Positions 36,539 to 39,037 of a stretch of 64,000 nt of DNA are shown piece after piece (the first letter of the stretch is position 1; each line of letters starts with the position of its first letter). The notes under the pieces were generated by a model, which saw only the letters and a list, made by a program, of their open reading frames with translations, ran no database searches and was not told where the DNA came from. Origin of the DNA: Rubidibacter lacunae KORDI 51-2 (lineage in GTDB: Bacteria > Cyanobacteriota > Cyanobacteriia > Cyanobacteriales > Rubidibacteraceae); assembly GCF_000473895.1 (NCBI RefSeq), contig NZ_ASSJ01000083.1, positions 1 through 64,000 on the forward strand. Direction: 5' to 3'. The position numbers and the translations under genes were made by a program.

Positions 36539-36826
36539 CTCGCCATCGCCCGTGCCGACAGCACCCCGCCTCCTGCTAAGGGCTCCATTTAAATACTTGC
36601 GGTGAGGCTGAAAGACGTGACCGGCGCTCGGAGTATTAGGTGCACGTTTGCCGATACACCCGATACATCATTGCTAAAAAGCCAGTTGCTGCGGCCCGCC
36701 GGGCGGCAGCAGTCCCTAAACTTCAACCGGACAGGTGCGGGGAAATTGCCGAAGTCAATCCGGAAAAGTCGGTTCGGTTTTTTCCTGGTAGGCTGATAGC
36801 TGTTGCACGGAGCGTGGGGGACGAGC
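36539..36826. other. intergenic before pseudo-orthocaspase
   Basis: Non-coding ~290 bases. Contains the likely promoter and a GGGGGACGAGC ribosome site at its end. Nothing else seen. Confidence 0.5.
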
Positions 36827-39037
36827 ATGAAGCGGCGGGCGTTTCTGCACGGAGCGGGACTTTCTCTGCTGGCCTTAGGCAACGGCGATCGCATTCTCCA
36901 GCTCCCGGCGCGCTGGCAGCGGGCAGCTGCCGTGCTTGCCGAATCGTCTGCTCGCAAGCTTGCTTTTCTCGTCGGCATCGATCGATACAGCCACCTCCAG
37001 CCCCTGCGCGGTTGCGCGACGGATGTGCAACGACAGCGTGAGTTGCTTCTGTCGCGTTTCGGGTTCCAACCGTCGGACGTTCTGACCCTGACAAACGAGC
37101 AAGCCGAGCGCGAGGCAATTGAAACTGCCTTTACCGAACACCTGATCGAGCAAGCACGCACTGGCGATGTGGTCGTCATTCACTTCAGCGGCTATGGCTC
37201 CCAGGTACCGCTTCACACAGGTCAGATTGCGGATTCGGTTGCGAGTCTGATTCCAGTCGATGGCAACGCCGGTCAATCAGGAGAAACCAATCACCTTTTG
37301 TTGGAAACGCTGGCACTTTTGGCGCGATCGCTGTCGACTGACAAGGTCACCCTCGTTCTCGACACCAGCCATAACAGCAGCGGTCAAACACTCCAAGGCA
37401 ATTTGCGACTGCGTGCGTTACCCGACCCCGCGCGAGTCGCGGTAGCGGCGGACGAGCTGAACTATCGCAACACCCTGCGCCGCAAGTTCGACTCGCCGAT
37501 GCAGGCCTTGCTCGAAGGCAACAAGCTGCTACCGGGGCTGTGGCTGACCGCAGCTGGTGCGGGACAACTGGCAGCTGAAGCTGAATGGGGAGGCTTTAGT
37601 GCCGGTTTGTTCACCTACACCTTTACGCAGGCCTTATGGCATGCGGTTCCTGCCAGCAGCGTACAGATCGATCTCGCGCGCAGCGCTCAAACCATCGAGC
37701 GGCTGACCGGGCGGCTTCAGCAGCCGCAGCTTAGCGGTCGGGCAACGGCTGGCAAACCCCTTTATGCTTATTACTTGCAGCCTGACGCGATTAGTGCGGA
37801 TGGGGCGATCGCGGCGATCGAAAAAGACGGCACTGCCGTCGTCCGCCTCGACGGACTGCCGCTTCCGGTGGTGCGCGAGTACGGATCTAAGTCGCTGCTG
37901 GCAGTTGTTGCTCCCGACCGAGAGGGACCGATCGCCCGACTTAAGGTCAGCGCTCGCGAAGGTGCAATCGCTAAGACGCAATTGTTGGAGGAAAGCGAAC
38001 GAGATCTCCTTGCTGTCGGACAGCGCGTGCGCGAAGCCCTGCGCGTCTTGCCCCGCGACCCCGGTTTGACTGTCGCGCTCGATCCCGAACTCGGCCGCAT
38101 CGAACGCGTGGACGCTACGAGCGCGCTCAATAGTTTCCCGGAAGTGTCTGCGGTGGTCGCAGCTGGGGAATCCGCAGCAGATTGTTTGTTTGGGAAGGTG
38201 CCGGCGGTCGAAGGCGGCCGACGCAACAGCATTTTGGACAGCGGCTACAGTTTGTTTTCCATCGGCGGCGTGCCCTTTCCTAACTCAGTGGGAGCGCAGG
38301 CTGAAGCCGTTAAGTCAGCTGTTTATCGTCTCGCTCCCAAACTCAAAACACTGCTCGCTGCCAAGCTGTGGCGGCTGACTGCCAACGAAGGGTCGTCGCA
38401 GCTGGGCTTGCGCGCGACATTAGAAGCGATCGCGCCCGACAAGCGCCTACTCCTGCGGCGGCAAACACTGCGACCGCTTTCCCCTCCCTTTCCCGATGGT
38501 TCGCAGACCCCGTTAGCGCTCGCGAACAACCGCCTACCGCTCCTGTCAGTGCGGGAGCAAATTTGCTATCGGGTCGAAAACTACGACGAACGCCCGTTGT
38601 ATTTGCTGTTGTTGGGGATCGACTCTGGCGGCAACGCGATCGCGCTACTGTCGCCGCAGCCCGACTCTGCCGATGCAGGCGGTGCGGCAACCTTGAACGA
38701 CATCACCATTGCACCGGGAACAACGCGCCTGCTCCCCGATCCTGCCGCAACGTCCTTCGAATGGATTGTCCCCGGACCGGTCGGCCTGGCAGAAATTTAT
38801 GTGATTGCAAGCACGGCTCCGTTCGAGCAAACCCGCGGCGTCTTGGCTGCCACACCTCATCCGCGCGGCGAAGGCGAGCGGATTGTCGACCTAGATGACC
38901 CACTTGAGGTCGCTCGCGCCCTCCAACAAGACCTCCAGTCCGCCGATGCGGAAGCCTCAGCAACGGGCGACTCCACTACCTACGCCCTTGCCAGCAATTC
39001 TTGGGCAACGCTCGGTTTCGTGTATCAGGTCGGATGA
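36827..39037 (+). CDS. caspase-fold protein (pseudo-orthocaspase) with Tat-like signal
   Basis: A 736-residue protein. Residues 1-20 form a KRRAFL twin-arginine-type signal. Residues ~43-300 are a C14 caspase-like domain: KLAFLVGIDRYSHLQPLRGCATDVQRQ is the p20 start. The catalytic His motif, normally SGHGSQ, is SGYGSQ (Tyr123), and the catalytic Cys motif, normally DxCHSG, is DTSHNSS (Ser181), so peptidase activity is not expected. The C-terminal half (from ~540) has a DUF4384-like beta-rich domain (REQICYRVENYDERPLYLLLLGIDSGGN). Y/S pseudo-orthocaspases are known in cyanobacteria; their role is unknown. Confidence 0.85.
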   Translation: MKRRAFLHGAGLSLLALGNGDRILQLPARWQRAAAVLAESSARKLAFLVGIDRYSHLQPLRGCATDVQRQRELLLSRFGFQPSDVLTLTNEQAEREAIETAFTEHLIEQARTGDVVVIHFSGYGSQVPLHTGQIADSVASLIPVDGNAGQSGETNHLLLETLALLARSLSTDKVTLVLDTSHNSSGQTLQGNLRLRALPDPARVAVAADELNYRNTLRRKFDSPMQALLEGNKLLPGLWLTAAGAGQLAAEAEWGGFSAGLFTYTFTQALWHAVPASSVQIDLARSAQTIERLTGRLQQPQLSGRATAGKPLYAYYLQPDAISADGAIAAIEKDGTAVVRLDGLPLPVVREYGSKSLLAVVAPDREGPIARLKVSAREGAIAKTQLLEESERDLLAVGQRVREALRVLPRDPGLTVALDPELGRIERVDATSALNSFPEVSAVVAAGESAADCLFGKVPAVEGGRRNSILDSGYSLFSIGGVPFPNSVGAQAEAVKSAVYRLAPKLKTLLAAKLWRLTANEGSSQLGLRATLEAIAPDKRLLLRRQTLRPLSPPFPDGSQTPLALANNRLPLLSVREQICYRVENYDERPLYLLLLGIDSGGNAIALLSPQPDSADAGGAATLNDITIAPGTTRLLPDPAATSFEWIVPGPVGLAEIYVIASTAPFEQTRGVLAATPHPRGEGERIVDLDDPLEVARALQQDLQSADAEASATGDSTTYALASNSWATLGFVYQVG

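Follow-up and report, generated by a model that had tools for sequence, protein, structure and literature searches.

The gene at positions 36827-39037 of the forward strand encodes a YS pseudo-orthocaspase, a caspase-fold protein in which Tyr and Ser occupy the positions of the catalytic His and Cys, while the residues of the substrate pocket are retained. Homologs of this gene are kept under purifying selection in endosymbionts without intact photosystems and without any other C14 gene, and at most of the loci compared the gene lies directly downstream of sat, which encodes ATP sulfurylase. The window referred to below is the whole 64,000-nucleotide stretch of the Rubidibacter lacunae KORDI 51-2 genome that was analyzed. 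We propose, with confidence slightly above even, that the protein is a Tat-exported, non-proteolytic orthocaspase that acts constitutively as an adaptor or receptor, with a housekeeping role in the thylakoid lumen or periplasm, independently of both photosystems and a partner orthocaspase.

Domain architecture and the catalytic dyad

The 736-aa reading frame was confirmed by ORF listing, with the stop codon ending at 39037. The start was assigned to the ATG at 36827, and an alternative TTG at 36803 is less likely because relatives begin with M-x-x-x-RR, a pattern that the ATG fits. Orthologs are present in most cyanobacterial relatives. The Tat-like N-terminus, MKRRAFL...VLAES (residues 1-38; 36827..36940, +), contains R3, R4 and F6, which are invariant in 34 of 34 orthologs; the RRxF of the window protein belongs to an RRx[FLW] motif shared by 87 of 89 pseudo-type relatives and 13 of 14 relatives with a His-Cys (HC) dyad. 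It is followed by the p20 caspase-fold domain (PF00656, E = 1.5e-17; residues 43-304; 36953..37738, +), over which the match reaches position 225 of 233 in the Pfam caspase model, a figure that bears on whether a p10 domain, which orthocaspases lack, could be present. AlphaFold2 modeling from 34 orthologs (mean pLDDT 85, pTM 0.86, with pLDDT mostly about 90 in the p20 region) produced a structure resembling metacaspases and caspases. In a Foldseek search with the whole model, all listed PDB matches at E ≤ 0.001 were metacaspases, paracaspases or caspases, the best being a metacaspase at E = 2e-13. Both the PF00656 match and the structural match identify the p20 caspase domain that defines orthocaspases (peptidase family C14B).

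The C-terminal half had no structural relative among the listed whole-model matches at this threshold, which were restricted to the caspase family. It includes the most conserved segment of the family, residues 396-460 (38012..38206, +; consensus RIERVDATSAF), with a mean majority-residue frequency of 0.672 versus 0.647 for the p20 core; I425, E426, V428, D429, T431 and S432 are invariant in 34 of 34 orthologs, and no Pfam family is assigned to the segment. Further downstream, DUF4384 was detected at residues 588-665 (38588..38821, +; Pfam E = 6.5e-8) and in 28 of the 34 orthologs, whereas the original description of the YS clade reported no identifiable C-terminal domain (PMC6426788). An earlier sequence-only reading of this DNA had noted a C-terminal domain and a Tat-like signal, and both are borne out by DUF4384 and by the recurrence of the RR motif across the relatives.

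The same reading placed SGYGSQ and DTSHNSS at the sites of the His and Cys motifs of active enzymes, and the alignments agree. A phmmer search aligned HFSGYGSQVP of the query with HYSGHGTRLP of plant metacaspase-4; when 13 HC orthocaspases of matching architecture and the three HC paralogs of the genome were aligned with it by MAFFT, Tyr123 (37193..37195, +) stood in the column of the catalytic His (SGHG) and Ser181 (37367..37369, +) in that of the catalytic Cys (DTSHNSS versus DSCHSGG). The window protein therefore carries Tyr123/Ser181 in place of the His-Cys dyad of active orthocaspases. The outcome that would overturn the reading, as named in it, was an alignment placing Tyr123 and Ser181 outside the dyad positions, with neighboring His and Cys filling them, and the alignment with cyanobacterial orthocaspases revealed no such arrangement. 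Compensation by a nearby residue was also considered and rejected, as His119 is invariant in HC relatives too; residue 182 was discarded as a stand-in, being His, Tyr or Phe in HC relatives as well.

Across the 125 full-length pseudo-type relatives that are distinct in sequence, the dyad is YS in 106, FS in 11, CS in 4, LS in 3 and YC in 1, and a complete HC dyad occurs in none; deeper relatives add YG, HG, LG and YR. Ser is the commonest residue at position 181 (79 of 89 pseudo-type relatives), as might be expected if the protein were still an enzyme, namely a serine hydrolase using Ser181. However, the general base is missing: Tyr, Phe, Leu or Cys fills position 123, and the only two relatives with His there carry Gly at 181. 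Gly or Arg is also found at 181 in deep relatives; we consider residual hydrolase activity very improbable.

Two observations concern the history of the dyad. The sole relative to show Cys in the catalytic-Cys column (L026 in genome G026, Tyr-Cys) is nested among YS sequences and looks like a single reversal. In two deep lineages, represented by L205 (G210) and L211 (G071), His is kept and Gly replaces Cys; these sequences, both on long branches, might point to Cys having been lost first.

Pocket conservation, selection and clade membership

The predicted S1 pocket for a basic residue is formed by Cys63 and Asp66 (37013..37024, +), together with Ser121 (37187..37189, +) and Asp179 (37361..37363, +), positions that were matched to those of metacaspases by motif. 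In metacaspases the equivalent residues bind the basic P1 residue, as described for the type I metacaspase TbMC2 (PMC6426788). Asp66, Ser121 and Asp179 are present in all 124 pseudo-type relatives compared and Cys63 in 121, so that all four are kept in 121 of 124. As the dyad varies while the pocket residues are kept, the cutting residues have been free to change and the binding residues have not, although a need for correct folding, instead of ligand binding, could account for the retained pocket.

Values of dN/dS between close relatives are mostly 0.1-0.3, as estimated by a simple counting method that saturates at large distance and is noisy for pairs with small dS. The comparison of selection on the caspase and C-terminal domains gave about equal values for three regions of the protein, namely p20, the middle and the C-terminal part. 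Chance survival of a decaying gene could be suggested by the broken copy in a relative from the same family (G004); this explanation is refuted by selection, as well as by the open 700-800-aa frames in most genomes, and retains practically no probability. The claim of a selected pseudo-enzyme is instead supported, given the full length of all 125 relatives, the consistent absence of the HC dyad, the conserved pocket and the low dN/dS, and the window protein is predicted to be non-proteolytic.

A scan of genome contigs with an alignment as the query detected relatives; a single-protein query gave no matches. In a tree built by a quick method and with long-branched deep rows, 89 pseudo-type rows separate from the HC rows at the starred branch with an SH-aLRT of 100. 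With its Tyr/Ser dyad, acidic S1 pocket, Tat-like N-terminal extension and separation from HC sequences, the window gene falls within the YS pseudo-orthocaspase clade. This clade was described, including its Tat-like N-terminus, by Klemencic et al. in 2019 and is near-universal in cyanobacteria; its published members share with the window protein the dyad, the intact acidic pocket, the N-terminus and a long C-terminus (PMC6426788).

Active HC orthocaspases have the same p20 fold and pocket residues, and the closest ones are of the same length and begin with a Tat-like sequence; they differ in possessing the catalytic His and Cys and in their genomic context. SyOC (sll0148), the only orthocaspase in the genome of Synechocystis PCC 6803, is a pseudo-orthocaspase like the window protein but has a Tyr-Gly instead of a Tyr-Ser dyad, and the knockout of this ortholog shows normal growth and better H2O2 tolerance (PMC7889975). 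In the pseudo-metacaspase TbMC4 of Trypanosoma brucei YS also replaces HC, but this is a eukaryotic metacaspase that is processed by the active metacaspase TbMC3 (cited in PMC6426788).

Retention in endosymbionts and the photosystem question

The spheroid body of Epithemia turgida (EtSB, G166) has no intact PsbA/D or PsaA/B, these being represented by fragments, mostly with stops, or by nothing. The same holds for RgSB (G200), which fits the spheroid body of Rhopalodia gibberula, and G299 and G300, from the same genus as EtSB and RgSB, are likewise without intact PsbA/D or PsaA/B. Each of these four genomes holds an open 754-755-aa gene with the YS dyad. Two further genomes, G267 (1.49 Mb) and G268 (1.44 Mb), which we take to be UCYN-A from their size, the genes they contain and their place beside Crocosphaera in the tree, yielded no PF00124 match, keep PsaA/B and carry an intact YS gene. 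In endosymbiont pairs the dN/dS of the YS gene is 0.152-0.157, compared with 0.07-0.16 for neighboring retained genes in the same genome pairs. TatC is present in the window genome, and testing of three genomes or records from diatom endosymbionts showed it in each.

No match to the YS gene or to C14 was found in G003, G038 and G269 (draft, 96% complete), all of which have photosystem genes. In G004, a single-contig photosynthetic genome from the family of the window, the YS copy is broken (L036 5936-7099; G004:C1:1888935-1890098). This copy has lost ~340-350 internal codons; the flanking parts meet at the SGYG motif, and a TGA lies where they join.

Since the YS gene is kept without photosystems and is absent or broken in some photosynthetic genomes, it is neither required for nor dependent on photosystems, and a photosystem-bound role is unlikely. 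This bears on the published hypothesis of a specific role in photosynthesis, which draws on the occurrence of the YS clade in nearly all thylakoid-bearing cyanobacteria and its light regulation in two species (PMC6426788). In our phylum sample, too, strong full-length matches were confined to genomes of the window's own class. The endosymbiont data nevertheless lend the hypothesis no support, as the gene is kept at a dN/dS of about 0.15 in the four photosystem-less diatom endosymbionts and the two PSII-less genomes, and its loss or breakage in photosynthetic G003, G038, G269 and G004 also counts against it; a specifically photosynthetic role therefore appears improbable. The protein may still have a wider role in the thylakoid membrane or lumen, because diazoplasts retain thylakoids (PMC11070190, PMC5638926).

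The endosymbionts also bear on the idea that the pseudo-protease regulates an active orthocaspase within its own cell through dimerization or as a decoy, comparable with cFLIP acting on caspase-8. Animal and trypanosome pseudo-caspases act in this way (PMC6426788), and the window genome carries three further C14 proteins, all with an HC dyad. However, in EtSB, RgSB, G299, G300, G267 and G268, and likewise in G110, PF00656 matches no gene other than YS, which makes action via an active orthocaspase in these genomes unlikely; Klemencic et al. argued similarly from unicellular cyanobacteria (PMC6426788). We consider such regulation improbable.

Linkage to sat and the proposed function

In the window, sat (PF01747/PF14306; 35348..36538, +) is the conserved upstream neighbor, separated from the YS gene by 288-291 bp. 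Clustering of neighbors across 121 loci placed the sat family in 79 and the next family in 29. Among 111 distinct loci, sat was found in the flank of 77; in 75 it immediately precedes the YS gene in the same orientation, with a median gap of 155 bp. It is the one strongly conserved neighbor of the YS gene. Distant lineages have the pair too, namely L207 and L217, where 13-14 bp separate the genes, and L211. By contrast, sat was upstream in none of the 12 HC relatives tested. In the UCYN-A-like genomes G267 and G268 (L192 and L193), sat lies directly upstream of the YS gene with gaps of 152-153 bp. In the diatom endosymbionts (L153, L184, L194 and L195) the YS gene is unlinked from sat, which persists elsewhere in the genomes of those tested (G166, G200 and G300).

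In Nodularia, a 2016 study reported that one of three metacaspase genes has sulfate adenylyltransferase as its neighbor, and it suggested a connection to sulfur (PMC4933709). No published account of how widespread the linkage is was found among the open-access papers searched, and both the breadth of this linkage and the endosymbiont retention go beyond those papers. The linkage raises the possibility that the protein acts in sulfate assimilation or in sulfur/redox balance alongside the adjacent ATP sulfurylase. The frequency of sat relative to the next neighbor family, the short gaps in distant lineages, the absence of sat upstream of HC relatives, the Nodularia precedent and the altered H2O2 tolerance of the Synechocystis knockout (PMC7889975) would all fit such a role. 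On the other hand, ATP sulfurylase is expected to be cytosolic while the YS protein looks exported, sat remains in genomes without the YS gene, and the pair is split in many lineages, with at least 19 changes of linkage state on the tree. A promoter scan detected no promoter-like site ahead of the YS gene; the sat-YS gap of the window contains a terminator-like hairpin, which also speaks against the role, though such sites are not above background. The linkage may mean no more than shared expression. We regard a role in sulfur assimilation or sulfur/redox balance as unlikely, albeit less so than the photosynthetic and regulatory explanations.

Under the preferred reading as an exported adaptor or receptor, the protein would leave the cytoplasm via Tat, as read from its RR motif. 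The p20 fold with its acidic Arg/Lys pocket could then bind a peptide or stretch of protein with basic residues and leave it uncut, and the C-terminal half, comprising the RIERVDATSAF segment and DUF4384, would probably provide an effector function or membrane contact. Its activity in the lumen or periplasm would be constitutive and tied neither to photosystems nor to an active orthocaspase partner. Because G003, G038 and G269 lack the gene and the copy in G004 is broken, housekeeping does not equal essential. More tentatively, and at somewhat less than even confidence, we suggest that this photosystem-independent protein of the lumen or periplasm was linked to sat early in cyanobacterial evolution, is needed even in near-organelle genomes such as those of the UCYN-A-like bacteria and the Epithemia/Rhopalodia diazoplasts, and serves respiration, the envelope or redox/sulfur upkeep instead of photosynthesis or cell death.

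Pseudo-orthocaspases are near-universal in cyanobacteria, and the functions suggested for them in the literature are photosynthesis and cell death. Their retention in photosystem-less endosymbionts without other caspase relatives is a natural experiment that narrows the choice of functions, and the linkage to sat supplies a concrete pathway to which the function may relate. The intact copy in the UCYN-A-like genomes of 1.4-1.5 Mb indicates that the protein may work inside a nitrogen-fixing organelle.
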